Part shown: positions 14,441-62,800 of the stretch, one piece after another | Layout of the letters: each line of letters begins with the position of its first letter | How positions within the stretch are numbered: the stretch's first letter is position 1 | From: a virus | Length of the DNA: 64,000 nucleotides | Direction: 5' to 3' (one strand) | IMG/VR virus record: IMGVR_UViG_3300027851_000024 | Span: 1 to 64,000 of that record | Made by a program: the position numbers and the translations under genes | The notes under the pieces: model-generated | The model's input: only the letters and a program-made list of their open reading frames with translations | The model's database searches: none | What the model was told of the DNA's origin: nothing

Positions 14441-14460
14441 GTTCATTTTTGAACAGCAAG
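14441..14460 (+). repeat. Dispersed GTTCA-N4-TGAAC element, copy 1
   Basis: GTTCATTTTTGAACAGCAAG, in the structured gap upstream of ligase. The right flank CAGCAAGTT matches copy 4 in reverse orientation. Confidence 0.65.
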
Positions 14461-14473
14461 TTTTATTAGTTAA

Positions 14474-14567
14474 AAAGATATTCAGACCCGTATCGTATTT
14501 CAGGGCTTGTGAGTCAGCACCGCCATAGCTTGGTTCCCAAGACAGGCTATTAAATAGCAATATCTTT
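14474..14567 (-). ncRNA. Candidate structured RNA G (downstream of SSB-like gene)
   Basis: A 9-bp closing helix AAAGATATT (14474-14482) / AATATCTTT (14559-14567) encloses a nested stem near 14525-14550 (ATAGC/GCTAT with CTTGG-TTC-CCAAG inside). It starts 6 nt after the stop of the SSB-like gene on the leftward transcript. The architecture resembles element A at the other end of the same gap. Confidence 0.4.
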
Positions 14568-14572
14568 ATTAA

Positions 14573-14995
14573 TTAAACTACTCGAACAATCTCATTCCTC
14601 GGTGCTCCAATCTTAATCGGATTTCCTTCGTCGTCAGTACTCATGCCATCGTTATAATTCAGTTCAGCCGTAAACTCCAAGCCAACCAGATCAGATTCGT
14701 CAGTCTCCTGGTCGGGATCTAAGCCGAGAGCGCGAAGGAAATCTTTAACCATCCGCCACATCAAGTTGTTCTTATCTTCATCGTCGCCCTGATAGTCTTT
14801 GTAATTACCATACCAGAGTGTGTGGAAGATAGTAGATGCGTTGTCTTCGCCATCGATGTTGATAATCAACTGGCAGCCGTAACGGCCAGTTCGCTGAGAC
14901 TTGGTTTCTTTGACCTTGGTGATGCGGAGATCATACTCGCCAGCTTCTACGGGTGCCTTGTCGGGAATCTCACTCAGATTAGGAATCATTGCCAT
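14573..14995 (-). CDS. SSB-like / DUF669-type single-strand DNA-binding protein
   Basis: 140 aa. VEAGEYDLRITKVKETKSQR followed by QLIINIDGEDNASTIFHTLW is the strand pattern of small OB-fold phage proteins that accompany Sak4-type recombinases. The C-terminal half is acidic (DEDKNN, DQETDESD). No canonical DDIPF tail; the end is NEIVRVV. It is two genes downstream of the Sak4-like ATPase, supporting a role as the phage ssDNA-binding partner. The assignment is by pattern and context. Confidence 0.6.
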   Translation of the reverse strand: MAMIPNLSEIPDKAPVEAGEYDLRITKVKETKSQRTGRYGCQLIINIDGEDNASTIFHTLWYGNYKDYQGDDEDKNNLMWRMVKDFLRALGLDPDQETDESDLVGLEFTAELNYNDGMSTDDEGNPIKIGAPRNEIVRVV

Positions 14996-22007: not shown

Positions 22008-22268
22008 TTATTCTAGGTCAGTCATTGTTAAACCCTTGGTTACGCGGGTTTGGCTGAATTTCTGACGAATGAAGTTGATAGATTCTTCAGTTGGAATCTC
22101 TTTCGGATCATCACAGAGATAAATGATTCCATAGTAAAAAGTAAGTTTGATGACTTGACTGATTGTGGTTAGTTCAGCTACTGGTATGCCCTTAGCAATT
22201 AGGCCGTCTCTAGCCTTGGCCAGGTCTTCAACAGTCATGCGAACTGATACTACGCGGGATTTGCTCAT
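22008..22268 (-). CDS. RHH-like DNA-binding protein, paralog 1
   Basis: 86 aa. VVSVRMTVEDLAKARDGL then a linker and TTISQVIKLTFYYGIIYL: a strand followed by two helices, as in Arc/CopG ribbon-helix-helix proteins. The adjacent gene 22272-22676 has the same layout with related residues, so the pair probably arose by duplication. Candidate transcription regulators of the early or late region. Confidence 0.6.
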   Translation of the reverse strand: MSKSRVVSVRMTVEDLAKARDGLIAKGIPVAELTTISQVIKLTFYYGIIYLCDDPKEIPTEESINFIRQKFSQTRVTKGLTMTDLE

Positions 22269-22271: not shown

Positions 22272-22676
22272 CTATTCCTCTTCTTCGTTAAGTTCATCTT
22301 CTTCGTCCATCCAGTCAGTTGGAGGACTGAAATCAGTTACAACAGAAATGTCAGACTCGGTAATATCAGATGGAAGTGGCATAAAAAGAGTTGGATTCTT
22401 CAAACTTACTAGGTTTTCTTCATCATCTGCCAGGCTGGAGAGGTTGATTTCTCTTTTCTTTGGAAGGATTATGAAATTCTTAACTTCATTCATGATGTTT
22501 GGGTCTACCTGACCAGATTGGCCGAGGGTCATTTTGGCCAGATAATCTGTATAGATGATTTTGACTAGTTGGCTTAAGCTAGTGAGCTGAAAGCTTGGCT
22601 CAAGTGCACGGACTATCTGCAGGCCCCTGGCAAGTTGATATGGAGATAGACGAAATGTTATGATTGGATTACTCAT
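22272..22676 (-). CDS. RHH-like DNA-binding protein, paralog 2, with acidic tail
   Basis: 134 aa from the ATG at 22676 (GGAG site); the longer frame upstream overlaps another gene and is rejected. IITFRLSPYQLARGLQIV and TSLSQLVKIIYTDYL parallel 22008-22268. The C-terminus is strongly acidic (DWMDEEDELNEEEE). Possible regulator; the acidic tail might contact RNA polymerase or mimic DNA. Confidence 0.6.
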   Translation of the reverse strand: MSNPIITFRLSPYQLARGLQIVRALEPSFQLTSLSQLVKIIYTDYLAKMTLGQSGQVDPNIMNEVKNFIILPKKREINLSSLADDEENLVSLKNPTLFMPLPSDITESDISVVTDFSPPTDWMDEEDELNEEEE

Positions 22677-22695
22677 TATAAAGCTCCACTGAAAA

Positions 22696-22884
22696 TTATT
22701 CTTCTTCTTTACATTTATTACAGTTAGGTTTAGCCGCAGTATAAAGACCACAAAACTCACAACAGTAATTAATATTTCCAGGATATTTTTTAATATGCTC
22801 ACATACACAATTAAAACCAAACTCTGGATTTTCACAGGTACAAGAATTAGTTTCTTTAAAAAAGAGTTCTTTATCGATTATCAT
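22696..22884 (-). CDS. Cys-rich small protein
   Basis: 62 aa with nine cysteines: CTCENPEFGFNCVCEH, CCEFCGLY and CNKCKEEE. Probably binds one or two zinc ions. AT-rich, unlike its neighbours. Function unknown. Confidence 0.6.
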   Translation of the reverse strand: MIIDKELFFKETNSCTCENPEFGFNCVCEHIKKYPGNINYCCEFCGLYTAAKPNCNKCKEEE

Positions 22885-24097: not shown

Positions 24098-24130
24098 GAT
24101 GCTGACCTCTGGAAGTGGTTCAGAATGGTC

Positions 24131-24152
24131 GTTCATAAATGAACAGCCAAAC
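24131..24152 (+). repeat. Dispersed GTTCA-N4-TGAAC element, copy 2
   Basis: GTTCATAAATGAACAGCCAA followed by AC. It has a 14-bp inverted repeat plus the conserved right flank CAGCCARNC. In the leader of the 23882 gene. Other copies: 14441, 27694, 36850 (reverse) and 62151. Confidence 0.75.
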
Positions 24153-27671: not shown

Positions 27672-27691
27672 ATTCACACCTTTCCACAGTA

Positions 27692-27901
27692 GTGTTCACA
27701 GATGAACAGCCAGTCAGACAGGAAAAGCCAGTTAACATCATCCACCTCGGGAACAATTTTCAATTAGCAACATTGCAACTTGGAATCATAGAAACTTGTT
27801 ATGCATTAAGAACTGGCAGGCGGCCTTCATATTATGACCGGGCGACCATGCGTGCCGGCATTAAGGAATTTTCAGGAAAATTAAGGATTTCCACACTTTA
27901 A
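27692..27901 (+). CDS. Possible small ORF ahead of terminase
   Basis: 69 aa from a GTG inside the GTTCA element, without a ribosome site. Later part (TCYALRTGRRPSYYDRATM) looks protein-like, but no family is recognised. It could be a real leader gene with a downstream non-ATG start or untranslated leader. Confidence 0.3.
   Translation: MFTDEQPVRQEKPVNIIHLGNNFQLATLQLGIIETCYALRTGRRPSYYDRATMRAGIKEFSGKLRISTL
27694..27715 (+). repeat. Dispersed GTTCA-N4-TGAAC element, copy 3
   Basis: GTTCACAGATGAACAGCCAG followed by TC, at the head of the late transcript. The right flank CAGCCAGTC is identical to the copy at 62151. Confidence 0.75.
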
Positions 27902-27999: not shown

Positions 28000-28704
28000 A
28001 TGCTCAAGGAGTTAAAAAGTCAGCATCGCAACATAGTTCAAATGTCCTTTAATGGGTATTCGAACAACGAGATCGCTGAACGCCTTGGCATGGCCCATAC
28101 AACTGTATCAAGTATTCTCCGCTCACCGCTAGGTCAGGCATACTTGCATGGTTTGCAAGACCGCGCACACGAGGCAACTCTTGATGTTAGAAAAAAGTTA
28201 GTTAGCCTCAATCGCGCTGCACTCGATACATTTGAGCATTTGCTCGACTCTAGGTCACGCAAAGCTGTACCGGCCGCAGTTCAGTTCAACGCTGCCCGAG
28301 ACGTACTGGATCGCAATGGTTATAAGGCTCCCGATCGTCTGAGCGTTGACATGACTTTCCAGACCAAGACTGACGAAGAGCTTGATGCTGAAATTGCAGC
28401 AATCGAAGCCTCGATCAACAAAACTCACGGTAAAAATCTTCCAGAGATTAAGAAATCCTTAAAGTCTACATTAACTGAATCAACTGCACAAACTCTCTCT
28501 TCCCCCAAACCTTTCACAGTTGTTCCAAGTTTTACGGATTCCAAAATCGAGGATGACTTAACTCTGGAAGATTTATTCACTGATGACAATGACCAGTCTG
28601 ATCTGTTTAGCGAAACTGATTTTGAAGAGCCCATCTTGGTAGAAGATCCGACTGTTTTGGAAGACCTATCCTTTGATCCATTCCATAACATCAAGAGGCC
28701 ATAA
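28000..28704 (+). CDS. terS: Terminase small subunit
   Basis: 234 aa. N-terminal helix-turn-helix (YSNNEIAERLGMAHTTVSSI, about residues 19-38) recognises phage DNA. A helical oligomerisation region follows (ALDTFEHLLDSRS), then an acidic C-terminus (about 175-225) that probably contacts the large subunit. Its TAA overlaps the ATG of the large terminase, as expected for co-translated packaging genes. Confidence 0.82.
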   Translation: MLKELKSQHRNIVQMSFNGYSNNEIAERLGMAHTTVSSILRSPLGQAYLHGLQDRAHEATLDVRKKLVSLNRAALDTFEHLLDSRSRKAVPAAVQFNAARDVLDRNGYKAPDRLSVDMTFQTKTDEELDAEIAAIEASINKTHGKNLPEIKKSLKSTLTESTAQTLSSPKPFTVVPSFTDSKIEDDLTLEDLFTDDNDQSDLFSETDFEEPILVEDPTVLEDLSFDPFHNIKRP

Positions 28705-35267: not shown

Positions 35268-35864
35268 ATGGCTAATTTAGATACTCCTTTCGGTTTTAAA
35301 CCGGTTAAGCATTTGAATGGTGCTCCTTGGAATGGCAAAGTAAATGTTTATTACATTCCAAGTACGGATAACACAGCAGTTTTTGTAGGTGATGCAGTTA
35401 AGGGTGCTGGAGCTGCTGATACGACTGGCAAGTATCCTACCGTAACTCAGGCTACTGCGGGTGCTGCTGTTATTGGGGTTGTAATTGGTTTTGGTGATAA
35501 TCCGTATACAATGACCCATCCTGATACTCCGAATCGTTCCTATCGACCGGCAGCTACAGCTATGTATGCATTTGTAGTTGATGATCCGCAGGTGATTTTT
35601 GAGGTTCAGGAAGACAGTGATGCAAACTCTATTACTGCTGCAATGGTCGGGCTCTCGGCTAACTTTGTAGTTGGTGCAGGATCAACTGTTACTGGTAAGT
35701 CTGCAATGGAGCTTGACTCCAGTGACACTGCAACTGATGCTGCTGGTAATTGCCGGATTCTGCGCTTGGCTAATCGGGAAGATAATGAGCTTGGCAACTA
35801 TGCTAAGTGGGAAATTCTTTTCGGCGAGCATGAACTTGGCCTTACTATTTCGACTGATGTTTAA
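35268..35864 (+). CDS. Probable capsid decoration/cement protein
   Basis: 198 aa. Starts MANLDTPFGFKPVKHLNGAP, a pattern known upstream of major capsid genes. Ala/Thr/Gly-rich beta composition, with QVIFEVQEDSDANSI. Likely decorates or stabilises the capsid; could be a minor structural protein. Confidence 0.65.
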   Translation: MANLDTPFGFKPVKHLNGAPWNGKVNVYYIPSTDNTAVFVGDAVKGAGAADTTGKYPTVTQATAGAAVIGVVIGFGDNPYTMTHPDTPNRSYRPAATAMYAFVVDDPQVIFEVQEDSDANSITAAMVGLSANFVVGAGSTVTGKSAMELDSSDTATDAAGNCRILRLANREDNELGNYAKWEILFGEHELGLTISTDV

Positions 35865-35916
35865 TTAGTTGAACATTAACTATAACTATTTATTCATCAA
35901 TTAAGGGAGAAACATA

Positions 35917-36840: not shown

Positions 36841-36849
36841 TAACTTGCT

Positions 36850-36870
36850 GTTCATAAGTGAACGACCAAA
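36850..36870 (-). repeat. Dispersed GTTCA-N4-TGAAC element, copy 4 (reverse)
   Basis: GTTCATAAGTGAACGACCAA. In reverse complement it reads GTTCACTTATGAACAGCAAG, matching copy 1 (14441) on the conserved right flank. It begins 10 nt after the capsid stop. Confidence 0.7.
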
Positions 36871-36882
36871 CTAACAATGATA

Positions 36883-36919
36883 ACTAGCCGTTCTTAGCGA
36901 CGAGTTACGGGCGGCTAGT
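36883..36919 (+). terminator. Hairpin after capsid gene
   Basis: ACTAGCCG / CGGCTAGT, 8-bp stem with a 21-nt loop, followed by CAATTTTGGG. Weak T-run; it may partially terminate or stabilise the capsid mRNA 3' end. Confidence 0.5.
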
Positions 36920-36991
36920 CAATTTTGGGTAAATGAAAGTTAAAATCTTTCAGGCAGTTCCTTAAAAGGAAGTGTCCCAGTGGAGAAAATT

Positions 36992-37930: not shown

Positions 37931-37939
37931 AAAAGAACT

Positions 37940-37979: not shown

Positions 37980-38025
37980 TAATGTGATCATCTAGCTAAC
38001 AATAATTCTTATATCGGAGAATATT

Positions 38026-38925: not shown

Positions 38926-41460
38926 ATGGCGACACTATATGTAAATAATACAGGTCAAACTTACACAGATCCAGATGGTAATATCTGGGGTGTTGGAAAT
39001 GATACAACCGGGAACGGATCTTTCACTGCACCCTATGCAACAATTACAAAGGCTCTAACAATTGTTGTTACAAACGACACATTGATACTGTCTCCATCAA
39101 CATTTGTTTCTGGGGTAGACTTTGCGGTTACTGGATTTTCTTTTCATAATAAGGACAATGTCACTTTCCGTGGAGCAGACCCAGCGAATAAATCTGTTTT
39201 AAATGGATCTGGGATGGGGGCCTCAGCAGGCGGGACCGCTGGAACCTCAATGATCTACTTATCCAGCGGAATGAATTGCAAGTATATCGAATTTAATGAG
39301 GTAGCAGCAGGGGCAGCTAAGGAATACAGTACATCTTATTGGCACTATGCTGTTGGGGCAGTAGGGACAATTACCAGCCCAATAAATATTAGTTATTGTA
39401 GTTTTACAAAAAACTACAGGGCAATCAACCTAAATGGCGCTGAAGCTACAGACTGGGTAATAGATAGATGCTTGTTCGATGAAAATCTTGATAAGGTTAT
39501 TCATGCTGGGTCTGTAGTATCTGGTTCTGTCATAGTCGCGCTTATAACTAGATGTGTTTTTTCTGGTTTATTGATTCCAGGGGTCAGGACTGTCTGCAAT
39601 ATACAAGGCGTGTATGCTGAAAATATAAACGCAGGAAACTCCTTAACCTTGTATAACAATACATTCGCTGGGATATCTTTTCCTATAATCTCCACTAATG
39701 GATATACCGGAGTTCTGATAATCAAGAACAACGTATTTTATGGAACCTCATTAGGGTATAGTATATCGAAAGGGACGGCAACCACTCTGACTGAAGGGAA
39801 TAATGCGTGGTGCGGGAGCAAGCCGTCTACACATTTCGCATCTATCGCTCAAAACTTTACCCCAGATACAAGTGATTTATCTGACTATGCTCATGCTAAA
39901 ACGGCAAGATACAAAGGATGGTACGTATTAAGATTTGACGACCGACCTTCAACCTCTACTCCCGCAAAGGATTCATATTATACAGATGCAGGAACGGTGC
40001 TATATAATCACGGGTTAAAAGGATCTTATGCCTTTGATGTTGCCGGACTGACAGCGCAGGATATCACTACAGCACTAGCACTTATTGCTCAAGGACATGA
40101 AATATCATGTCACTCGTATTCCCACATGAGTATGAATAATGCGTCTGGTTCAGCAAACAATATTCCATTTTCTGTGACCGGTCCAGTAGGGAGCAATATT
40201 ACCATTACCCGATCTGGCACTGCTCCACTTGACATTACCACTATAACTCTTACCGAGGGTGTAACATCAACACAGATAACATATCCAGCAGTGTCAGAGT
40301 TATTGTACAATATGACTGATGACCCTACTGTGTACTCTGTTGTTGAGACAGGAACAGTCCAAGGTAGTGTTGTTGCAAATTTTGATCTTGGGTCTCTGAA
40401 GGGTTTAAGGGATTACATAGACAGTTTAACTAACTGGTCGGCAACTGCGTATAATGCGGGGGAGTATGATCACGCTGAACTGACACTGGCAAGGAATATA
40501 GCAGCGATTAATCAGGACAACCCGTCATCTACAGCACTTCCATGGGATACTGTACCACTGCACTGGTGGGAAATGAGATACCCAAAGCTTGTTCTTGAAA
40601 ACCTTCTCAGTGTTACGGTTAATACATTTACATACCCAAACTATAAATATGATTCTCTAGCAAAAACCGACCTGCTTCTGCATGGGTATTCAGTTGGCTT
40701 GGGAGAGATGATAGTTTCAGACGCAGATGCGTATGATGCTGGTTATGCTGTAATGTTCAATATAATAACAACTTTACTATATTACTATAGGCTTTTGTCT
40801 AACGATGTTTTGCAAGATCGCTTTGAGTCAGTGGCCGAAATTATTGGTAATGGGCATAAGATTTTCAGCCTTATGGCACATGTTGCTGCTGATTTCTCCG
40901 TTGCACAGTGGGAGGTCTTGGCATCTACCTTAGCTGGATATTCAGACAGAGCAGTGTGTGTAACTGGTAACGAACTTGGAGAATTGATATCATCATCTCC
41001 GCTATGGTCAACAGCAGATGGGGGGTTGACATATAGACGTACTGATTGGACAGAGTTTTCAGGAAACTACCACTTGCCTGTCACTTCTCCGTGCGTAGGT
41101 AGTGGAGCAGATGTTGGTATCACGACTGATATAGACGGCAACCAGTTATATTCACCGTATAATATCGGATCATACAGTGGAGACGGTAGTGATATGCAAA
41201 TGGCTAGTATTGCTTATCCAGGCCCCCTCGGACTCGACGCACCAGTAACCGTAGGCACAGTCTACCCGGATATCACCATCACCGCACCTCTTGGGGCTGA
41301 GATGCAGGCTGTAACCCCGTTTACCGCTGGTGCTGCTGTAAATCTGGCAACGCTCGTGCCATCGGCAAAGGTGCGGATCGGGACAAAGGGGATGTTGGTT
41401 TACGATACCGATCTGACGGCGGCTGAGATTGTCAGAGCCGATAAGATTGTTGGGGCATAA
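38926..41460 (+). CDS. Tail spike-like protein: beta-helix plus polysaccharide deacetylase-like domain
   Basis: 844 aa. Residues 1-300 show the solenoid pattern of right-handed beta-helices (YCSFTKNYRAINLNG, DRCLFDENLD, NNTFAGISFP). From about 330, YVLRFDDRPSTST fits the NodB/CE4 DD motif, QGHEISCHSYSHMSM (about 389-403) the metal-binding HSxSH motif, and NTFTYPNYKYD a later active-site strand. This suggests deacetylation of capsule, peptidoglycan or exopolysaccharide. The C-terminal 80 residues are GC-rich and compositionally different. Function inferred from motifs. Confidence 0.7.
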   Translation: MATLYVNNTGQTYTDPDGNIWGVGNDTTGNGSFTAPYATITKALTIVVTNDTLILSPSTFVSGVDFAVTGFSFHNKDNVTFRGADPANKSVLNGSGMGASAGGTAGTSMIYLSSGMNCKYIEFNEVAAGAAKEYSTSYWHYAVGAVGTITSPINISYCSFTKNYRAINLNGAEATDWVIDRCLFDENLDKVIHAGSVVSGSVIVALITRCVFSGLLIPGVRTVCNIQGVYAENINAGNSLTLYNNTFAGISFPIISTNGYTGVLIIKNNVFYGTSLGYSISKGTATTLTEGNNAWCGSKPSTHFASIAQNFTPDTSDLSDYAHAKTARYKGWYVLRFDDRPSTSTPAKDSYYTDAGTVLYNHGLKGSYAFDVAGLTAQDITTALALIAQGHEISCHSYSHMSMNNASGSANNIPFSVTGPVGSNITITRSGTAPLDITTITLTEGVTSTQITYPAVSELLYNMTDDPTVYSVVETGTVQGSVVANFDLGSLKGLRDYIDSLTNWSATAYNAGEYDHAELTLARNIAAINQDNPSSTALPWDTVPLHWWEMRYPKLVLENLLSVTVNTFTYPNYKYDSLAKTDLLLHGYSVGLGEMIVSDADAYDAGYAVMFNIITTLLYYYRLLSNDVLQDRFESVAEIIGNGHKIFSLMAHVAADFSVAQWEVLASTLAGYSDRAVCVTGNELGELISSSPLWSTADGGLTYRRTDWTEFSGNYHLPVTSPCVGSGADVGITTDIDGNQLYSPYNIGSYSGDGSDMQMASIAYPGPLGLDAPVTVGTVYPDITITAPLGAEMQAVTPFTAGAAVNLATLVPSAKVRIGTKGMLVYDTDLTAAEIVRADKIVGA

Positions 41461-41476
41461 ACATGGAGGGCACGGA

Positions 41477-41830
41477 ATGAAAAAATGGATGCTGTTGTTA
41501 CTGTTGCTGCTGGCGATTCCTGCTATGGTGAGTGCAGGCATGATTACAAAGAGTGAGACGTTTTCGTGGAGCTACACCGCCGAAGCAGAGGCAGAGATAA
41601 CCGGATTTGAGATTTACCAACTCGTCGGGACGTTGCCTGAGAAGGCGGTGATCAGCAAGATTCCGAAGACGGCAAGGATCGCGACTGGAACAATCACGTA
41701 TGACACCGGAACGGTTACTCGGTTTTATATTAAAGCGTACAATGATGCCAACCCTGATGCGATAGAGTTCTCTGGGCCAAGTAACACAGTGCGGATACAT
41801 GCGACTCCTGGCAATTTTAAGCGCAATTAG
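41477..41830 (+). CDS. Exported Fn3-like protein 1
   Basis: 117 aa from the ATG at 41477 (GGAGGG 6 nt upstream). Strong signal peptide KKWMLLLLLLLAIPAMVSAG, then a single beta-sandwich-like domain (TFSWSYTAEAEAEITGFEIY). Periplasmic or surface location predicted. Overlaps the next gene by 32 nt. Confidence 0.6.
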   Translation: MKKWMLLLLLLLAIPAMVSAGMITKSETFSWSYTAEAEAEITGFEIYQLVGTLPEKAVISKIPKTARIATGTITYDTGTVTRFYIKAYNDANPDAIEFSGPSNTVRIHATPGNFKRN

Positions 41831-42128
41831 CATCCTGCTATGGGCATCGGAGGCAATGGCAACAAGCATCCATGTCACATGGGGCTACACTCCACCGATG
41901 GATCCAGCAGTAACTGGCTATCGGCTGTATCAAGAAGGTGTACCAGTATGCTACGGATCAGGCCCGACATTACAGGAGATGGACTGCAAGGTTACGCTGG
42001 TGAAGAAGGTAACAACCTACACGCTGACCGCAATGTTCGTAGATGGAACGGAATCACCCCACTCTGCCCCCTATGCTTTTGATATGGACGGCAGACTTCT
42101 GGCCCCGTGGACCTTCAACAAAAACTGA
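41799..42128 (+). CDS. Exported Fn3-like protein 2
   Basis: 109 aa with signal peptide (MRLLAILSAISILLWASEAM) and a beta-sandwich (TWGYTPPMDPAVTGYRLYQE) resembling that of 41477-41830. The start lies within the end of the previous gene in another frame. The paired Fn3-like exported domains may act at the host surface. Confidence 0.6.
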   Translation: MRLLAILSAISILLWASEAMATSIHVTWGYTPPMDPAVTGYRLYQEGVPVCYGSGPTLQEMDCKVTLVKKVTTYTLTAMFVDGTESPHSAPYAFDMDGRLLAPWTFNKN

Positions 42129-42136
42129 GGACAATT

Positions 42137-42442
42137 ATGAAAAAAATTCTAGTAGCGCTATCTGTATTATTGCTTAGTAGTTGTGCTTACAATAACAGGG
42201 AGACAGTAATAACTATCTACAGTGGCTCTGATACTACTATAGATGCATCAGGTGCTAGTAATACTACCGATACTGGCCAGATGCCAACTGCAGATTTAAC
42301 CCCACTTGTTGAAGCTGCTCAGGCTGCTATTGGTGGTAAGGCTAGTAGCTTTATAGATAAGATCACTGATGTGATTGGTGGAGATAGTAAGGAAGAAGAG
42401 GTAGTCGTTCCGTTGACTGGAGACATTGAAGAGGTAGATTAA
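42137..42442 (+). CDS. Predicted lipoprotein
   Basis: 101 aa. MKKILVALSVLLLSSCAYNN has an n-region, hydrophobic core and LSSC lipobox, predicting lipidation at Cys16. The mature part is Ser/Thr/Asp-rich. GAGG ribosome site. Possibilities are an outer spanin-like or superinfection-exclusion lipoprotein; no small inner spanin partner is obvious nearby. Confidence 0.65.
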   Translation: MKKILVALSVLLLSSCAYNNRETVITIYSGSDTTIDASGASNTTDTGQMPTADLTPLVEAAQAAIGGKASSFIDKITDVIGGDSKEEEVVVPLTGDIEEVD

Positions 42443-43206
42443 TGAACCGATTGATCCCACTTATTATAGCTTTGCTTATGTCTATTCCAATCTATTCTTT
42501 GGCAATTACGGATACGGAAATCTGTGTGCAGAAGTGCCTGGACGGAGGAACAGTAACTCCTCCTACACCAACAGGTGCTACCTTTCCGCACAAGATCACA
42601 TTCGAGAATAGCGCAGATCAGGCGCAAGGTAACGCAGCAATATTGTTTAGAACTATCCCTGATGGAACCGTTAAGTCCATATCTGTTAATGGCGAAGTAG
42701 CAACTCTTGGTAGGCCTTATAAAGGTGCATCTGTATTTCTATTATCAAAACCAGGAGAACAGTATTCCAGGCCTTTAAAGTTTACTATTACCACTAGTGA
42801 TGGAAAGTTCTGGACTGCCACTAGTGGGGCCACGGAGAACACAGACACTCCAGTCGCTACAGGGGACTATAAGAACAAAGCAACCTATACATCTTATGGT
42901 GTTCGTAATGGTGGAAGGCAGGCATGGAGAATACCGAAGAAAGGTCCAGACTTTGGACAGCCTATTAAGTTTGTATTCTCTTCAGGCAAATCTTTTACAG
43001 TTAAGAATACCTCAAAGAACTGTAGGGATCAGGAGTCTTGTAGTAGGAATAGTAGAGCACCTATGTATGGTTTTGTATTCAAACCTGGAATAGGACCTAA
43101 TGGTGAAGGAGATGACAATACTGGAACTGCTCATGGAGGGATTTATTTACATGCTCCGTACGGAGACTCTAGCAAGCAAGTAACTGTCTATTATAATGGG
43201 AGATAG
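42442..43206 (+). CDS. Exported protein of unknown function
   Basis: 254 aa with a signal peptide (MNRLIPLIIALLMSIPIYSL). The mature domain is beta-rich and has two C-terminal Cys (KNCRDQESCSRN). The start overlaps the lipoprotein stop by one base. Not recognised. Confidence 0.6.
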   Translation: MNRLIPLIIALLMSIPIYSLAITDTEICVQKCLDGGTVTPPTPTGATFPHKITFENSADQAQGNAAILFRTIPDGTVKSISVNGEVATLGRPYKGASVFLLSKPGEQYSRPLKFTITTSDGKFWTATSGATENTDTPVATGDYKNKATYTSYGVRNGGRQAWRIPKKGPDFGQPIKFVFSSGKSFTVKNTSKNCRDQESCSRNSRAPMYGFVFKPGIGPNGEGDDNTGTAHGGIYLHAPYGDSSKQVTVYYNGR

Positions 43207-43211
43207 TATCT

Positions 43212-43394
43212 ATGCGCGTAATCATTGATTCTAATCTGACTGTAATAGAAAAGACAGATGGTATCAATTACGTGCAAGATACAACATGTAAAGACTGGCA
43301 ATACTGCTTTTCAGTTAAAGATAATAACATGCAACGACAGTGCAAGAACTTCAAGAAGCTTTTAACTGGTGTTAAACTCTGTGCTAGAAAATAA
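43212..43394 (+). CDS. Small Cys-containing protein
   Basis: 60 aa with four Cys (CKDWQYC, QCKNF, LCARK). No signal peptide. Located between two exported proteins; function unknown. Confidence 0.45.
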   Translation: MRVIIDSNLTVIEKTDGINYVQDTTCKDWQYCFSVKDNNMQRQCKNFKKLLTGVKLCARK

Positions 43395-43398
43395 AATT

Positions 43399-43869
43399 AT
43401 GTTTAAGAATCTGGCAATTTTTATATTACTTATACTGTCTGCAACTACAAGTAATGCTACTCCTGCATTGGTAGTTGATGTAGTAGATGGAGATACAATT
43501 AAGGTCTTTGCTGCTGACAAATTAACTACAGTTAGACTATATGGAATTGACTGCCCTGAGAAGAAGCAAGCTCGTGGAATTGAAGCTAAAGCATTTATTG
43601 AATCAATGGTTGAAGGTAAGACTGTTGATGTAAATTCTATAAACACTGATAGATATGGAAGAACAGTTGCAGTTGTAATGTTTGGAAATCAATGTGTTCA
43701 AGAGCAATTGTTAGTTTCTGGCCTGGCTTGGGTTTATCCTCAGTATTGCAGGAAAGAATTTTGTCCTGCATGGATGGCATTACAGAAAATTGCAAATACG
43801 AATAAGTATGGACTGTGGACTGATCCTATGCCAATTCAGCCATGGGTTTGGAGGAAGCAGAAACGATGA
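43399..43869 (+). CDS. Secreted staphylococcal nuclease-like thermonuclease
   Basis: 156 aa from the ATG at 43399. Signal peptide FKNLAIFILLILSATTSNAT, then SNase signatures VVDGDTIKV, VRLYGIDCPE and TDRYGRTVAVV. The family cleaves DNA and RNA with Ca2+. An exported phage nuclease could degrade incoming rival DNA in the periplasm or extracellular DNA at lysis. Its TGA overlaps the next ATG. Confidence 0.85.
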   Translation: MFKNLAIFILLILSATTSNATPALVVDVVDGDTIKVFAADKLTTVRLYGIDCPEKKQARGIEAKAFIESMVEGKTVDVNSINTDRYGRTVAVVMFGNQCVQEQLLVSGLAWVYPQYCRKEFCPAWMALQKIANTNKYGLWTDPMPIQPWVWRKQKR

Positions 43870-44276
43870 ATGGATGGCTAGAATATCGGGCAGGATTCAA
43901 ATATCAACTAACTAGCAATTATTCAAAACAGACAGAGATACTTGGATTTGATATTGACACAGCATACATTAAGTTAGCAAGTGATGGATTGCTTGCGCTC
44001 AAATGTGGATATGCTAGTGATGGTCCGAGTGGCCTAACAATAGATACTAGGAATTCAATTCGAGCAGCATTCGTTCATGATGCACTTTATTATCTGATTA
44101 GAAACGGTTATCTTGATCAAGAATGGAAGAAGTATGCAGACAAACTATTCTATGAGATATTGCTTGAAGATGGAATGTGGAAACCTCGAGCTTATATCTG
44201 GTACTGTGGTGTTAGGTGGAAAGGTGCCGAGTCACTGTATCCTTCAAAAGAGAAACCGGTTCTAAGAGCACCGTGA
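43866..44276 (+). CDS. DUF1353-like phage protein
   Basis: 136 aa from the ATG at 43866 (GGAGGA 10 nt upstream, ATGA overlap). GYASDGPSGLTIDT then AAFVHDALYYLIRNG is the DUF1353 core (conserved Asp-Ser/Gly and HD). Commonly found near lysis genes; function unknown. Confidence 0.7.
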   Translation: MNGWLEYRAGFKYQLTSNYSKQTEILGFDIDTAYIKLASDGLLALKCGYASDGPSGLTIDTRNSIRAAFVHDALYYLIRNGYLDQEWKKYADKLFYEILLEDGMWKPRAYIWYCGVRWKGAESLYPSKEKPVLRAP

Positions 44277-44280
44277 CAAT

Positions 44281-44736
44281 ATGGGATGGAAGGAGTGTGA
44301 ATTGGAACCAGTGAACTCGAATGATATGGAAGTATGGAAATGGCTTCTTACTATCTTTGTAGGTGCTATAAGTGGAATGATTACAGCAGCAGTTACCATA
44401 GGCAGTTTGATTTATAAACTTAATACAAATGTTTCAGATGTTAATAATGTAAAAAAGGTGCTGTTTAAAGATTCTGGTGGACTAAACGTAATGACTGAAT
44501 CAAGACATACAGAAGTTTGTGCCTTTACTATGAAGTATTTTGAGCAGGATTTTGATCACATAAAAGAACAGATGGAAAAGTTGGAAGAAAAAATTGACAT
44601 TGTTTTATCTAGTGCTCATAAAGCAGACGTTATTAGTACAGAAGATATTAAAGTTCTGCATAACTTAATGTTGGAGATAAATAAAAAGGTAGGGCAGGGC
44701 CTACAAAGGGCTAAAGATTCTGAAGGTCATAGTTGA
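44281..44736 (+). CDS. Membrane protein of lysis region (holin candidate)
   Basis: 151 aa. Transmembrane segment WLLTIFVGAISGMITAAVTI (about 20-39) followed by a soluble helical part with a coiled coil (QMEKLEEKIDIVL). Its position two genes before the lysozyme suggests a holin or inner spanin. Single-pass topology makes a classical holin less certain. Confidence 0.5.
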   Translation: MGWKECELEPVNSNDMEVWKWLLTIFVGAISGMITAAVTIGSLIYKLNTNVSDVNNVKKVLFKDSGGLNVMTESRHTEVCAFTMKYFEQDFDHIKEQMEKLEEKIDIVLSSAHKADVISTEDIKVLHNLMLEINKKVGQGLQRAKDSEGHS

Positions 44737-44737
44737 T

Positions 44738-44911
44738 ATGAGTACAGTTACAAGGATTGAAGAACTGCTAAGATGTGCTACTGTAATTCCTGAGAAGGAC
44801 AAGGCTGGAATTATTACAGCACATGGAGTTGATTGTACTGTAAGAATAAAGGCATTGAATGATTGTTTGAAAATTGCCAAGGATGAGGAAAGAAAGAATG
44901 AGCGTAATTGA
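44738..44911 (+). CDS. 57-aa small protein
   Basis: Starts MSTVTRIEELLRCATVIPEK, ends KDEERKNERN. Helical, charged, three Cys. Starts 1 nt after the 44736 stop and overlaps the lysozyme start by 14 nt. Unknown. Confidence 0.5.
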   Translation: MSTVTRIEELLRCATVIPEKDKAGIITAHGVDCTVRIKALNDCLKIAKDEERKNERN

Positions 44912-45296
44912 AGATCTCAAGAGGCATGAAGGATTTAGAGCAAAACCATATCTAGATACTGAAGGACATCTTACGATTGGGTATGGATTAAATCTTGATG
45001 CCGGGATTAGTAAAGAAGAAGCTCAAATGATTCTTGCACATCGGGTGAGGAAAGTGCAGTTTGATCTTATCTCTAGGTTGTCATATTGGAATAGGCTATC
45101 TTCGGTTCGGCAGGATGTATTAATCAATATGGCTTACAATCTAGGAGTTGAAGGCTTGATGAAGTTTAAAGTTACCCTTAGTATGATTGAAGCCGGAAGG
45201 TATGAAGAGGCAGCGAGGCAGATGCTCCAAAGTAAATGGGCTAAACAAGTTGGTAAGCGAGCTATTGACTTATCTAATATGATGCTAGAGGGTTAA
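44898..45296 (+). CDS. GH24 lysozyme (T4-type endolysin)
   Basis: 132 aa from the ATG at 44898 (GAGGAAAG site). HEGFRAKPYLDTEGHLTIGYG carries the catalytic Glu-8-Asp-5-Thr triad (E11, D20, T26). NMAYNLGVEGLMKF matches the C-terminal lobe. No signal peptide, so release needs a holin. Hydrolyses peptidoglycan at the end of infection. Confidence 0.9.
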   Translation: MSVIEDLKRHEGFRAKPYLDTEGHLTIGYGLNLDAGISKEEAQMILAHRVRKVQFDLISRLSYWNRLSSVRQDVLINMAYNLGVEGLMKFKVTLSMIEAGRYEEAARQMLQSKWAKQVGKRAIDLSNMMLEG

Positions 45297-45303
45297 TATA
45301 TAA

Positions 45304-45417
45304 ATGATTATTAGTATTAAAAATTTTAACCTAGCCCAGAACCGCCCTGCCACTGATCGTCCGTGGCGTGACGGGATGTGCGGGCATACTGAGTACATTG
45401 TGATGGAGAATAAATAA
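45304..45417 (+). CDS. 37-aa putative small protein
   Basis: Starts MIISIKNFNLAQNRPATDRP and ends TEYIVMENK. TAA overlaps the ATG of 45417. Weak ribosome site (AGAGGG, about 11 nt away). Its second half is GC-rich like the following gene's start. Confidence 0.4.
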   Translation: MIISIKNFNLAQNRPATDRPWRDGMCGHTEYIVMENK

Positions 45418-46439
45418 TGGCCCTGTGGACACCGGCAGAAATAGGGTCAGCCGTGGCTTTGTGGCTGGACGCTAGTGATTCAACAACGATCACTATTGAT
45501 ACCGGGATCGGTGAGTGGCGAGACAAATCCGGCAACGGAAGACACCCGGCAAACACTACCGATGCAGCCCAGCCTGGACTCATCAGCGCTGAGCTGAATG
45601 GATTGGACATCGCCAGGTTTGATGGATCAAATGATTCGTTAATTTTTCCAGGATCTACCGCAACAGATTATCCGTTGAAATTCAGCACTGCCAGTTTTGC
45701 CGTGCTGGCAATTATCAAGCCATCGGCGCTCGTTGCCACGGTTAATATCTTTTTCGGGTCCCGTGCAGCTGCAACTGGCTGGTTTGCCGGGTTTGGGACA
45801 AATGATCCATATTTCAGGCTATATGCCGACGCCGAAAAATGGGAACCAGCTCCGATGACCGCAATAACTGCCACAACGACGTGGCAAAGTTTTGTTGCTA
45901 CGGCTCCTCGTGGAGCGACCGGGAAATACCGAAAAAACGGGACAACATTACAATCGACGACCAGCGCGGTTGGAACTCAATCGCTGTCGAACTCGTTACA
46001 GGTCAGACTAGGGAGTTACGTTGACGCGAGTAACGTTACAACTGGGCAATTTAACGGAGATATTGCTGAATTACTGCTGTATGAAGGGGTCATTACCGAT
46101 GATTTAATTCAGTTATGGGAAGGGTATGCCCACTGGAAATGGGGTTTGCAGGATGATCTCGCCGCCGACCACCCATACAAATCCGCCGCGCCGACGCTAA
46201 ATAAAGTTTCAGGAGTAGTAACTGTAAATGGATCTCCTGCTGCTAGAACTGTCGCAGTTTTTCTACGATCTGATTTTACATTACTTGGCACTACAACATC
46301 AAATGCAACTACTGGGGCCTTTGAGATATTAAATGGTTTGATTCCACCAGATGCTAACGCACTATTAGTAACAGCAATTGACTCAACTGGTACCTATAAT
46401 GCTGTTTCAGTAGATTATATAACTTCGGTTAGCTCATGA
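45417..46439 (+). CDS. LamG-like adhesin/fibre protein
   Basis: 340 aa. Opening PAEIGSAVALWLDASDSTTI, then WRDKSGNGRHPANTT and SLQVRLGSYVDASN are typical of concanavalin/LamG-like phage adhesins. A C-terminal carboxypeptidase-regulatory-like domain (SGVVTVNGSPAARTVAVFLR) begins at about 262, where composition switches from GC-rich to AT-rich. Likely binds host glycans. Mosaic origin. Confidence 0.65.
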   Translation: MALWTPAEIGSAVALWLDASDSTTITIDTGIGEWRDKSGNGRHPANTTDAAQPGLISAELNGLDIARFDGSNDSLIFPGSTATDYPLKFSTASFAVLAIIKPSALVATVNIFFGSRAAATGWFAGFGTNDPYFRLYADAEKWEPAPMTAITATTTWQSFVATAPRGATGKYRKNGTTLQSTTSAVGTQSLSNSLQVRLGSYVDASNVTTGQFNGDIAELLLYEGVITDDLIQLWEGYAHWKWGLQDDLAADHPYKSAAPTLNKVSGVVTVNGSPAARTVAVFLRSDFTLLGTTTSNATTGAFEILNGLIPPDANALLVTAIDSTGTYNAVSVDYITSVSS

Positions 46440-47356
46440 GTTATACCCCACCAGCAGGAGATGCAATAGTTCTTAATTTCAGTGGGAGTTATACCCCTCC
46501 TACTGGAGATGAGATAGTTCTTGCTTTTGGAGATTCTGTTCCGAATGCAAGCACTGAGTTAAGTGCTGTAGCATCGAATACCTCGATTGGACTTAAAGTA
46601 TATAGTGAAAGTGTTGAAGTATTTGCAATAACAGATATTTTAGTTACTGGGATCAAACTGTCAATATCTCTTGCTGATCTGGTGTCCGTTGCAGAGATAA
46701 ATGCTGTTGGAGAAGTTGGCACATCATCAGCACAAGGATCAGCAACTCTAGTTGCTATAGGTACGCTTAGCTCAATTGGAGTTAAGGTTGCAGTAAATTC
46801 TTGCGAGCTGGTAGTTTATGGAGATTTAGTTGATACTTCAACAAAGATTGGTGCAGGTACAGTTAGCATCTCATCGTTAGTTGAAGCAACTGCTACCTCT
46901 ATTAAAGTCGGAATAGGAGCTAGTACAATATATGCTACAGCAACTATTACCGTTGATGGAGAATCAGTTTTTGCACTACCTTATAGAACAGTATATCTAA
47001 CTGCAATATCTGCTATAGAGGTAACAGGAACAAAACTTGCTCGTGGTCCTCCTGAGTTATCATCAATTGCTGAAAGTATATCTTTCGGAATAAAGGTAGC
47101 AACTGATGAAGCTGAACTATCAGCAATAGCAGATGTAATAACTGATGCACTTACAATTCATGAAGTTGAATTATGGGAAGAAGTCTCAAGAATAACTAGG
47201 ACGTTCACTGAGCAGTCTGTAATTTCTAGGCAGTATTCAGGAACGTCACTGATTGACAGAATACTTACAGAAAATTCAGCATTAACTACAGAGTATTCTG
47301 GTAACTCATTGGTAACTAAAGTTTTTAAAGCAATATCACATTTGAGGAATACATAA
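46436..47356 (+). CDS. Repeat-rich tail/fibre protein
   Basis: 306 aa. A duplicated N-terminal motif SYTPP(A/T)GD-IVL-F (residues 2-14 and 18-30). Then seven or eight about 25-residue repeats of the form (E/A)LxAxAxxxxxGxKVaxx (for example ELSAVASNTSIGLKVYSES and ELSSIAESISFGIKVATDEA). The charged C-terminus (EEVSRITRTFTEQS) differs. Probably an elongated stalk or fibre. Confidence 0.6.
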   Translation: MSYTPPAGDAIVLNFSGSYTPPTGDEIVLAFGDSVPNASTELSAVASNTSIGLKVYSESVEVFAITDILVTGIKLSISLADLVSVAEINAVGEVGTSSAQGSATLVAIGTLSSIGVKVAVNSCELVVYGDLVDTSTKIGAGTVSISSLVEATATSIKVGIGASTIYATATITVDGESVFALPYRTVYLTAISAIEVTGTKLARGPPELSSIAESISFGIKVATDEAELSAIADVITDALTIHEVELWEEVSRITRTFTEQSVISRQYSGTSLIDRILTENSALTTEYSGNSLVTKVFKAISHLRNT

Positions 47357-47724
47357 TGGGCGCTTTTGTAGCAGCAGCAAAAAACACGATGCTTGATGCA
47401 CTCACTGTTGATCGGCTTTCACTGCATTCTGGTGCACCTGGAGCAGATGGACTGTCAAACGAATTATCTGGTGGAACGCCTGCATATGCACGCAAAGCTT
47501 GTGTTTATGCAGCAGCTTCTGGGGGAGAAAGACTATTGAACGCTGATGTGACTTTCGATGTTCCAGGATCGACAAGTGTTCAGTATGTTGGGAAATGGAA
47601 CTATAATGGTGGAACGATGATCTTTCACGGCTCCGACCAGGTAACGACTGAGTCTTATGGCGCGCAAGGGCAATACATCGTCAAGGCTACTACATCGAAA
47701 CTTGCACTGACTGATCCGGCATAA
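47356..47724 (+). CDS. Minor tail/structural protein
   Basis: 122 aa. RLSLHSGAPGADGLSNELSG matches a family of short phage structural proteins with an HTxxPG-x-GxNE motif, also found in 51143-51550. Overlaps the previous stop. Tail or baseplate component by context. Confidence 0.6.
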   Translation: MGAFVAAAKNTMLDALTVDRLSLHSGAPGADGLSNELSGGTPAYARKACVYAAASGGERLLNADVTFDVPGSTSVQYVGKWNYNGGTMIFHGSDQVTTESYGAQGQYIVKATTSKLALTDPA

Positions 47725-47733
47725 GGAGTTATT

Positions 47734-48042
47734 ATGACTGCTCCTAGTGGATTTTTCAAAGGGCAAGTTGGGGCTAAGATTATTTTAGAGACTGGTGATA
47801 GTGCTGCAATATTGGCTACTGCAACAGTTTTGAGGATTAACTACTGTTTGCCTTCAGGAAATACTGGATCGTGGACAGCGGCGCTGGAAGGTACATCATT
47901 GGCATATACAACTACTGCTATAACAAATCTTTCAGAATCAGGCTTGTACAAAATACAGGCATATGTCGAAGGGCCTGGATGGAAGATGCCTGGAGAAATT
48001 GTCGAGATGTATGTTTCTGCTCCGATTGTAGCTATAGCATAA
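47734..48042 (+). CDS. Small beta-rich structural protein
   Basis: 102 aa. Single Ig-like domain pattern (LRINYCLPSGNTGSWTAALE, then LYKIQAYVEGPGWKMPGEIV). Common after adhesin genes in podoviruses. Tail-associated by context. Confidence 0.6.
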   Translation: MTAPSGFFKGQVGAKIILETGDSAAILATATVLRINYCLPSGNTGSWTAALEGTSLAYTTTAITNLSESGLYKIQAYVEGPGWKMPGEIVEMYVSAPIVAIA

Positions 48043-48055
48043 AGGACCCATCTTA

Positions 48056-48256
48056 ATGTATGTACTAACTATTGATCAATCCCGCTGTGCAGACTGTGGG
48101 AATTGCGAACGAAGATTGCCTGGGCTGCATTCGAAAGTAATAGATAATAAGTTGCTTGTGAATGAAGTTAATTCTGATGTAGATTTTGTTGCGATATTTC
48201 GTGCGCTTGCTGACTGTCTTACTGAGGCATTAAGTTTTCGGAGGTTCAATGGCTGA
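48056..48256 (+). CDS. Ferredoxin-like small iron-sulfur protein
   Basis: 66 aa. IDQSRCADCGNCERRLPGLH places Cys at 11, 14 and 17 and Pro at 22. A fourth Cys (C54) sits in ALADCLTEAL near the end. This is the layout of single-cluster 4Fe-4S ferredoxins of about 65 residues (CxxCxxC...C). It could carry electrons or simply use the cluster structurally. Unusual inside a tail gene cluster. The cluster assignment is from motif only. Confidence 0.65.
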   Translation: MYVLTIDQSRCADCGNCERRLPGLHSKVIDNKLLVNEVNSDVDFVAIFRALADCLTEALSFRRFNG

Positions 48257-58784: not shown

Positions 58785-58813
58785 TAACAATCATTAATTA
58801 TTGAGGTTAAGCT

Positions 58814-59881
58814 ATGGCTCTTAGTACTATTGAAGAAGAAAGAAAACGTAAAGAAGCAGCAGCTAAACAACTTACTCCTACTACTGATCCCTTTCTTGCC
58901 TCGATTGCTAGAGGAGATTATACTACGCCTAAACCAGTTGTTAAGCAAGCACAGGCTACTCCAGGCAATATAATGAGTGAATCTTTCTATGGAGGGGCAG
59001 ATTACTCACCTAGAACAAGACCTCAGATAGGCCAATCACAGCCAGATGGAAGTAGATTGGTAATTGATCAAAGAGCATCAACTCAATCTAATACTATAAA
59101 TCCACCACCGCTTAAAGAAATTCCCAATGCTCAGAGAGATGCTGAGTTGGGCAAGATGACAGCTTCAAGGAATGGAAATATAGTTACATATGATATTGGT
59201 GGAAACACTCTTTCATATGATGCAAGCCAGACTGATCCAAGTAAAATTAGCTTAAGAAATATAAACAAATCTTCTGGTAATGCCCCTACTTGGGATGATT
59301 ATCATGTACAGCAAAGGGCTAGATATGAGGCTGCAAATCCTCGTAAATATGCTTCTTCTGAATCAACTCCAATAACACCGAAGCCTATTGAAGATAATAG
59401 TTTTGGTGGATTGTTTCTGCAAGGATTACAAACTAGAAAAAATATGTCTGAAGCTCAGATGGCGGATCTTCGGGCAAAGCAAGAGGTTGCTCGGGCAGAG
59501 GTAATGAATCAAGCAAATCGTACTTTAGTAGATGTGGATAGAAATCGGTTGCTTGAAATGGATGTACAAGGACAAAATAAGTTACGGGATATTCAAGGTC
59601 AGGTAGCACAACAGCCACCAGTTACTGAAAGTACATTAAAGCCTATGATAATTGAAGAGGCTGATCCAAATGATCCAACTGGAATGAGTAAGAGGCAGCG
59701 AATCATGATTCCAAATGCGGAAGGTACTGGATATGTTGATGGAATGACTGGGCAGGCACCAGCAAGTACAGTTCCACAAGTTACCCCTGAACAAAGAAGT
59801 AAGATCAACGCATTAATCAAAGCTAATCCAAACATTGATAGGGCAACTATTCTTCAGAAAATAGCTAATGGAGAAATTTAA
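58814..59881 (+). CDS. Internal virion protein-like
   Basis: 355 aa. Charged N-terminal helix (IEEERKRKEAAAKQL), Pro/Gln/Ser-rich disordered middle, then a coiled region (AQMADLRAKQEVARAEVMNQ). Directly before the giant polyvalent gene (TAATG overlap), it may be co-packaged with it. No enzymatic motif. Confidence 0.55.
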   Translation: MALSTIEEERKRKEAAAKQLTPTTDPFLASIARGDYTTPKPVVKQAQATPGNIMSESFYGGADYSPRTRPQIGQSQPDGSRLVIDQRASTQSNTINPPPLKEIPNAQRDAELGKMTASRNGNIVTYDIGGNTLSYDASQTDPSKISLRNINKSSGNAPTWDDYHVQQRARYEAANPRKYASSESTPITPKPIEDNSFGGLFLQGLQTRKNMSEAQMADLRAKQEVARAEVMNQANRTLVDVDRNRLLEMDVQGQNKLRDIQGQVAQQPPVTESTLKPMIIEEADPNDPTGMSKRQRIMIPNAEGTGYVDGMTGQAPASTVPQVTPEQRSKINALIKANPNIDRATILQKIANGEI

Positions 59882-62800
59882 TGGATGAGTTTGATAAGCT
59901 GTTTGGAGTTGCTGATAACGAACCTGATGAGTTTGAAAAGATGTTTGGCATTAGCAATGCAGCGACTATAGATACTTCTGAGCCTGAACGAACTGTTGGC
60001 TCAACAATAAAGGATGTAGGCGTATCTCTTGCTAAAGGTGTAGTAGGTGCTGGCCAAGGACTGATAGGACTTGCAGATATTCCAACAGGCGGGCATGTTG
60101 GGAAGGGTCTTGAATCGGTAGGAGTCAAACCTGATGAATGGCAGCAGGATTTGTCAAAGCAATACTCACCTGCACAGCAAGCAGCAAATCAGCAAGTAGA
60201 TGCAGCGACTGGATTTGTTGATACTGCTAAAGCAATGATTTCGAATCCAAGCACGATTGCTCATGGCATTGTAGAGACGCTTCCATCCGTAGCTGCTGGT
60301 GGTGTGATTGGTAGAGGTGCCCTGGCAGTAGGATCACGGTTCGCTCCAAAAGCAGTTACATCTCTCGGCAAGACTGGATCTGCTATTGCAGCTGGAGCAG
60401 TTGGTGAAGGTACAATTGGTGCAGGGCAAACGGCTGAGCAGATTAGAAACCAGTCGCAAGATGACTTATTGACTGGAAAGCAGGCAGGCTTGGCAGCAGC
60501 GGCTGGACTTGGTACTGCGATATTTGGAGTTGTTGGTGGAAGGTTGGCAAAGAAATTTGACTTTGCTGACGTGGATACGATGATTGTCAATGGGCTGAAC
60601 CCAGCCAAAAAGGAAGGTCTCAAAGGAGTTGTCAAATCAATCCTTGGTGGAGGCATTACTGAAGGTGTGTTCGAAGAACTTCCGCAGACTGTCCAAGAGA
60701 CGATCTTCACAAATGCTGCACTTGATAAGCCATTGCTGGAAGGTGTGCCTGAAAGTTCTGCCCAAGCTATTATTCTTGGCGGAGCAATGGGTGGTGGTGC
60801 AAACTTGTTGCCAGGCAAAGATGCTGGGCCTGTAAAAACTGAGGCAGAGCTTGAACTGGATAGGCGTGCAGGAAATATTCTTATCCAGAAAGATGATCAG
60901 ATTGCTCAGAGTGTACAGAAATTAAATGAAGATCTTAAAGCTGGGCAGGAGTTGCTAGCTGACCTTGATAAACTTGATCAGAAGGCAAGAGAACTGAATG
61001 TGTCTCCAGCTGAGTTAACTAGAAAAACTGTTTATGACACCAAAAATACTCAGGATCTTCTGGATCGAATTAAGTCAGAAATGACGAAGAAGGAAGAGAT
61101 TGCTAAGAAAGAATATGAGGCGCTGTCGCCTGAAGATAAGCAAGTAAAAGATATTGAAAATAAACTAATTGCACAGCGTCAAGCTGAGGCTCAGCAGATC
61201 AATAGTGATCTTGAGGCAATTAAGAAGCGAGAAGAAATTGCTCGTAAGCAATATAAGGATGAAAAAGATCCTGAGAAGAAATCAGCAATTGCTGAACGGG
61301 CTATTAGTTTGAGGAAGGAAAAGGATGCGTTGCTGAACCGTCAGTTACAAATTCAAGAAGTGAATCAAGCTAAAGAATTTGCTCCTGTAAAGAAAGCTGA
61401 TGAACTTCGTCAGGAGAAAGAAAACTTTTATAATAGACTTTGGCTTGGAGGAACTAGTAAAGATGCAGCAGAATCTGCGCAAGTATTTAATGAAAAATCT
61501 ACTGAACAGCAAGATATCTTAGATAGGCTTTTGAATCAAATTGCAGCTACTCAGGATCAGCAAAAGAAACAAGAGCTGCAGAAAGTCTATGATGGATTGT
61601 TTCAGACTTTTGAACGTGATGCTCAGGAGGCTGCTCAAACTTTTGAAAGTCAAGATCTTAGTCAGTTTGATCAATTGGTTAGGGCTAAAGATCAGGAACG
61701 CCTTAATAAAGTTCTTGAAGCTATAGTTGTAGAGCCGGATCCTCAGGCACGACAGAAACTCTATGAGCAGATGTTTATGCTGCCTGGAGTTAAAGATGCT
61801 GCTGCTTCAGCTGAAGTGTTTGCTCAGCAGGGTGAAGATGCAGACATGGTACAGAGACGTAAAGAGTTGAAGCAGATCATGAGTAGGATTACTCAAGAGT
61901 CTGATCCTGCAGTCAGGCAGAAACTTTATAATCAGATGTTTCAACAGCCTGGAGTTAAGAGTGCTTTGGAGTCTGCGGAAGTATTTACTTCTACGGATGT
62001 AAAAACAAAAACAGGCAAACCATATAAAAGTAGAGAGTATCTTGAAGGAATTATTAGTGAATTACCTAATCCTGAAAGTTATGATATAATAGAAAGTCCT
62101 GAAGGATTTACTGCTGTAAAGAAAGTACTTGGTTCAATTGACAACAGTGCGTTCAATAATGAACAGCCAGTCGGTGAGGTTCCACAGTTTCAGGTTGGTG
62201 AAACTCAAAACCTTGTTAAGAATATAAGCCTTACTGATATTCAAAAAGCCTTCAATGATCAGATTGTTACAAAAGCTGAAGACGGAACTATATCTATCAA
62301 ATTAAAAAATGGAAAAGGCTTAACGATTAATAGCATTCAATCAGCTGGGGATGGTTTCATATCCTTTGCGATTGAAACTGGCCAAATGTCTAAGGAGGGT
62401 AAAATTCTTGGCATTACTGTAGGTAATAAGATTCTACTAGACAAAAACTTTGCTGACAATAAAACTCTTTGGCATGAAAGTATGCACGTCTTAGAAAATC
62501 TTGGCATGATCACAGAAGCTGATAATAGCGCTCTTAATAAGGAGTTTAATAAACTTCGGAAAGCAGGCAAGCTAAAGTTTGCTCTCAGCACATATAACAA
62601 TCCTGAATTATCAGAAAATGAAAATAAGAAGCAGCGCATGATTGAAAATCGGGCGAACATGTTTGCTCAGATTATGACTGACAGAGATGCATACCGCAAC
62701 ACTGGGTTTGGGAAAGTCATTCAAAGGGTGATGGATTTCTTTCAGCAGCTGCTAGCTATGGGTAAGCAGACTGTTAGTGGGCTTGCAAGAGAGGTAGAAT

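Follow-up and report, generated by a model that had tools for sequence, protein, structure and literature searches.

Proteins of the ParB family combine a ParB-type N-terminal fold and a helix-turn-helix (HTH) with short palindromic sites, the canonical parS being TGTTTCACGTGAAACA, whose TGTT...AACA ends are resembled by the sites described below. In phage N15, a plasmid prophage with a ParA and no methyltransferase fusion, several inverted repeats over the phage genome are bound by a ParB-type (SopB-type) protein. Here we analyse a dispersed inverted repeat, GTTCA-N4-TGAAC, in bases 1-64000 of IMG/VR virus record IMGVR_UViG_3300027851_000024 (full record 65,034 bp; "the window" means this 64,000-nucleotide stretch), together with a gene of the same genome that encodes a ParB-like DNA-binding domain fused to an N6/N4 DNA methyltransferase. 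A phage protein very probably binds these sites, and comparison of site and protein sequences makes it likely that the cognate binder is the phage's own ParB-methyltransferase fusion and that the sites are parS/OB-like.

Fusions of a ParB-CTPase with an N6N4-methyltransferase are described as frequent in phages and have the same protein architecture as that of the window, and their DNA site is not named in that work (PMC12704722); no published DNA site or function for such fusions was found in the open-access literature searched, and a cognate site family is proposed here. By functional analogy the nearest described system is KorB-OB of plasmid RK2, in which a ParB-family protein uses operators both close to its targets and at a distance from them on a single replicon (PMC11790492); KorB, unlike the fusion, carries no methyltransferase and has KorA as a partner, and a regulatory role of the present sites is hypothetical. 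The stoperators of mycobacteriophages L5/Bxb1, 13-bp asymmetric sites found at 20-30 per genome, oriented with transcription and bound by the immunity repressor, are likewise dispersed, with many away from promoters and a motif that diversifies with its binder (PMC6550527).

We regard the dispersed sites as working in the manner of a parS/OB-type system and do not file them under canonical ParABS, because the nucleotide motifs of the window protein are degenerate (ParB Box II and Box III), its C-terminus is a methyltransferase in place of the dimerisation domain, and no ParA ATPase was seen among the genes scanned, which were only part of the window's genes. They differ from canonical ParB-parS also in being spread as 4-17 sites over the phage genome and, in the window, in being asymmetric.

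The dispersed element and its conservation

Exactly five perfect copies of GTTCA-N4-TGAAC occur in the 65,034-bp record, with cores at 14441-14454, 24131-24144, 27694-27707, 36850-36863 and 62151-62164 (Sites A to E), and the reversed control pattern has none. A sequence-only reading of the window had given the same five positions, and its description of the right flank (CAGCCARNC / CAGCAAGTT) and of the reverse orientation of the copy at 36850 is correct. By copy number GTTCA-N4 tops all palindromes with 5-bp arms in the window, and five copies were reached in 0/40 Markov-shuffled genomes when any arm and gaps of 0-12 were allowed (four copies in 7/40, three in 33/40). With one mismatch allowed only four extra window sites appear, for a total of nine against 2.6 expected. 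The dispersed set is real. Even spacing of the sites gave p of about 0.006-0.07 in some genomes and p = 0.24 in the window. A near-site, TTGGTTGTTCA-N5-GGAACAGAC, lies at 8425-8457 of the window inside the PolA gene, with similar near-sites in six clade relatives.

Relatives were gathered via terminase and via ParB-methyltransferase, and their genes were called by a simple longest-open-reading-frame method. Most of the contigs come from metagenomes and could be partial. Every clade contig of at least 50 kb with the ParB-methyltransferase has 4-8 sites, while counts of the reversed control pattern stay near 0, and terminase relatives outside the clade have almost none. Conservation in related phages had been named as the test of the first proposal, and both the position and the number of sites are kept throughout the clade. 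One relative, G013 (terminase 78% identical; L180, L181), has no perfect sites and two degenerate GTTC-N7-GAACAAACT copies at 12117 and 36884, one of them at the capsid 3' end; its site set is perhaps drifting or decaying. A capsid-protein search for the host returned only relatives of 44-51% in contigs of metagenome-assembled genomes.

A motif built from 94 non-redundant copies, with the core fixed by definition, extends beyond the 14 bp and is directional, reading AACTkGnY-GTTCA-Tnnr-TGAAC-RnM, with the strong arm AACTkGnY first, the core next and the weaker arm last. The oriented model reaches a log-likelihood of -2386.9, whereas 12 sets whose halves were re-dealt averaged -2425.7 and came no higher than -2402.2; we describe the element as a pseudo-palindrome of ~25-30 bp with an orientation. 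The sub-clade of G009 and G010 has a 5-bp spacer at unchanged genomic positions.

Such a shape, a 5-bp stem with a 4-5-nt spacer and several copies right after stop codons, the capsid's included, could also describe an RNA hairpin serving as terminator, processing site or translational control. The likeness of half-sites at flank positions 8-13 makes this very improbable, being 0.301 within a site and 0.398 between sites (0.429 and 0.515 with G-U allowed); because half-sites of one site are less alike than those of different sites, compensatory pairing is absent. The core, moreover, is invariant and does not covary, and copies lie antisense inside genes. The hairpin reading was rejected on this complementarity test.

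The recurrent loci are those after the SSB-like gene, before the early RHH-pair operon, before or inside TerS, after the capsid stop and in the polyvalent gene. Site A (14433-14462, minus strand, strong arm to the right) lies between the SSB-like gene (14573-14995, minus) and the NAD ligase gene (12314-14071, minus), and its position is matched in G001, G005, G010 (with N5), G012, G039, G043, G045 and others. Site B (24123-24152, minus) lies at the 5' end of the early operon holding the RHH pair 22272/22008, where its core overlaps a small early open reading frame at that frame's 5' end, and has counterparts in G003, G042, G043, G045, G049 and G051. Site C (27686-27715, minus) occupies the divergent region upstream of TerS (28000-28704, plus), and its counterpart falls within TerS itself in G005, G007, G055, G058 and G061. 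Site D (36842-36871, plus) lies inside a same-strand operon, the stop of the major capsid gene (35917-36840, plus) being 9 bp before its core; most clade members have this site 5-26 bp past the capsid stop, and G055 has it 87 bp past. Site E (62143-62172, minus) lies antisense within the polyvalent gene. The earlier statement that one copy is inside the polyvalent gene thus stands, and that placing the other four in gaps at operon edges stands only in part: Site A is between same-strand genes, Site D is inside an operon and Site B overlaps the 5' end of a reading frame.

At the main loci the orientation is constant for each locus, for example antisense in 23/23 copies in the polyvalent gene and in 5/5 in TerS; overall, 67 copies are oriented with transcription and 58 against it. 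Sites of a stoperator type, which the sequence-only reading had put forward, would predominantly share one orientation, as in L5, unlike the mixed set seen here; a silencing role of that kind may still apply. The same positional record bears on the suggestion that the copies are scars or ends of a tiny mobile element, a reading drawn from dispersed copies that share a flank. It is hardly credible: positions are orthologous and fixed, per-locus orientation is constant, copy number is similar across the clade, and related phages carry different cores at the same geometry. Mobile-element scars were refuted by this positional conservation.

The polyvalent gene holds one copy throughout the clade (22 distinct in-gene copies). 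In 21/21 frame-2 in-gene copies the codon before TTC has G as its third base, while seven different amino acids are encoded; the naive probability of this bias, 9e-25, counts related sequences as independent and means no more than "very small". The polyvalent-gene copy of G010 has its left arm in another reading frame. The constant G at a variable codon and this frame shift together place the DNA, not the protein, under selection in the polyvalent gene. The record ends (window 1-12; 65023-65034) overlap by TGTT (...AATGGTAATGTT / TGTTATTCC...), and because joining them restores GNVIPLSERF in the polyvalent frame, the record probably represents a whole genome, closed into a circle, that was opened within that gene.

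Site sets and recognition helices in distant phages

The comparison set consisted of Desulfofustis phage MD01 (OP947158) and another 16 phages whose ParB-methyltransferases are distant or intermediate, with 15 control contigs lacking the fusion. What OP947158 has in common with the window is limited to genes of replication and recombination, among them a ParB-methyltransferase of 25% identity; it has no RHH homolog and carries GTCCCA-N3-TGGGAC six times. The distant ParB-methyltransferases are 25-58% identical, and many such phages bear dispersed palindromes of their own, as does at most 1/15 controls. YGTT-N9-AACR is present in 17 copies in G079, 13 each in G082 and G083, nine each in G084 and G089, and five in G080, and G077 has seven copies of its N10 form; controls have 0-1. 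These palindromes are usually 15-17 bp and often TGTT...AACA, and they are like canonical parS in these ends and in a length of ~16-17 bp in many family members, with a 16-bp version in the window. Only primase, PolA and the ParB-methyltransferase are common to all 17 phages, and since sites are missing from controls that have capsid, portal or terminase genes in common with the window, the sites follow this module.

These phages also bear on the RHH-like proteins that the sequence-only reading had listed as candidate binders. Operators of a small nearby RHH repressor (22272/22008 or 12103) would account for Site B leading the RHH-pair operon and for the site lying 20-57 bp upstream of RHH1 in G005, G006, G038, G058 and G061, yet matches to RHH1 or RHH2 occur in 0/17 ParB-methyltransferase phages, many of which have cognate palindromes, and RHH1 conservation is only ~40% while the site core is invariant. 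We consider RHH operators improbable. The two adjacent genes lie at 22272-22835 and 22008-22268, and a TDFSPPxDW motif is conserved at the C-terminus of the first, which has paralogs at other places in the relatives. Among the controls, Alcaligenes phage vB_Af_QDWS535 (L225, OK172329), whose capsid is 55% identical to that of the window, has ten copies of TCCTAA-N2-TTAGGA, mostly at 35819-48092 in the early region; they are probably operators of an unrelated regulator.

Site and protein sequences were compared in 30 phages with a determinable motif. In Mantel tests, motif distance follows the distance of the ParB HTH (r = 0.264, p = 0.010; partial r = 0.212, p = 0.014) and is not significantly related to that of the NTPase part, the methyltransferase domain, primase (whole protein r = 0.109, p = 0.18, partial negative) or PolA (r = 0.168, p = 0.064; partial p = 0.225). 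Among 1551 10-residue windows of the three proteins, those over the recognition helix (LKCSLGGLST, SLGGLSTDLA, CSLGGLSTDL) rank 1, 2 and 4 for the inner arm, and by eye helix and site pair as [SA]xG[GTAS] with GAAC, DHK with CCCC and SHA with TTACC. The earlier candidacy of the ParB-domain protein as the phage regulator reading these sites is thus strongly favoured through module linkage and recognition-helix covariation.

The other two enzymes of the module, encoded in the window by a family A DNA polymerase gene with an N-terminal UDG-like domain (5782-9237, minus; PF03167, residues 33-181) and a DUF3987 primase/helicase gene (4445-5716, minus), accompany the sites in 17/17 phages, and the correlation with motif distance is nearly as good for some PolA windows as for the HTH. 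The sites might then serve these enzymes, for instance in secondary priming or as origins. This is quite unlikely, since motif distance is not tracked by primase and only weakly by PolA, whereas the ParB HTH does track it, and the strand bias expected of priming sites is absent; to our knowledge, neither primase nor PolA is a reader of ~25-bp double-stranded palindromes.

The ParB-methyltransferase fusion as candidate binder

The proposed binder is a protein of 476 amino acids (10033-11463, minus), with a PHROG ParB match over residues 11-236 and N6_N4_Mtase over residues 267-458. The ParB N-terminal (CTPase-fold) assignment is backed further by a PDB match to 6ryk and by PF02195 in 10/10 relatives, PF02195 not being reported for the window protein itself. 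The ParB fold is fused to a PF01555 methyltransferase, whose catalytic motif DPPY (residues 271-274; 10642-10653, minus) was located by alignment and the Pfam match. The putative site-reading HTH rests on an alignment, a weak PF17762 match in L369 (E = 0.04) and the recognition-helix covariation; its recognition helix SLGGLSTDL (residues 135-143; 11035-11061, minus), identified from the top-ranked windows and a table of helix against site, lies within CS[LI]GGLSTDLAF, which is kept in 18/18 clade proteins. In the window protein Box II is GLHR (11293-11304, minus) and Box III SNMDR (11185-11199, minus), where GxRR and ENxxR, respectively, are present in 29/30 aligned family members; the sequence suggests that the fusion has lost NTP hydrolysis in the lineage of the window clade.

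Several points weigh against the fusion as binder. Its nucleotide-binding motifs are degenerate in the window clade, and the window sites are significantly asymmetric, which a symmetric dimer would not require. Some of the ParB-methyltransferase contigs, G078 and G081 among them, lack a clear site set. A primase scan showed that primase and PolA nearly always accompany the fusion, so the three genes form a fixed module and presence or absence cannot tell the binder apart. Within the covariation analysis, PolA windows rank near the HTH windows and above them once the outer arm is included, the outer arm follows overall relatedness, the partial correlation loses strength under a coarser measure of motif distance (p = 0.05 for the inner arm and 0.12 for the whole site), an unbiased single-column covariation scan did not single out the HTH, and the phages compared are related and hence not independent points. 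AlphaFold models were too poor for use, with a predicted local distance difference test (pLDDT) score of 43 for the fusion and 62 for RHH1.

If the fusion is the binder, a dimer of it, as we infer, would read the GTTCA...TGAAC arms through the ParB-type HTH, and the 4-8 scattered sites would place or load it on the phage DNA. The attached N6/N4 methyltransferase may then act on the phage genome in cis, and the bound protein may also, or instead, organise or silence nearby genes. For most of the family, in which the NTP motifs are intact, NTP-gated clamp loading is plausible; in the window clade, because Box II and Box III are degenerate, the protein may stay anchored in place and not slide as a clamp. 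Among the consequences that binding could have, methylation or counter-restriction in cis is a serious possibility, though short of an even chance, transcriptional silencing is doubtful, and a part in genome organisation or replication is unlikely.

The same binder could instead be a silencer like KorB or a stoperator repressor, blocking or tuning transcription from intra-operon sites. Sites do lie in short intergenic gaps within operons and just past stop codons, and in the five genomes named above an RHH gene follows a site at a distance of 20-57 bp. KorB, itself a CTPase of the ParB family, silences genes from OB operators that lie 4 to >1,000 bp upstream of promoters (PMC11790492). The mixed orientation relative to transcription and the constantly antisense polyvalent-gene copies argue against such a role, in several gaps the start codon follows the site too closely to leave space for a promoter, and no integrase or obvious repressor-controlled lysogeny genes were noticed among the genes examined; we hold it to be a doubtful alternative.

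With the fusion as a binder that methylates in cis, the sites and the protein could tentatively be read as a self-marking machine, in which dispersed parS-like sites load the methyltransferase, the phage genome and not the host's would be methylated throughout in cis, and helix and site would diversify together; the NTP clamp would slide in most of the family and be anchored in the window clade. The analysis offers a predicted cognate site for many ParB-methyltransferase fusions, with a rough correspondence of helix to site, and makes testable the question of whether a ParB-type module steers a methyltransferase to its own replicon. If true, this would give a virus a means of marking its own DNA, and the family would provide a toolbox of new ParB-site specificities.

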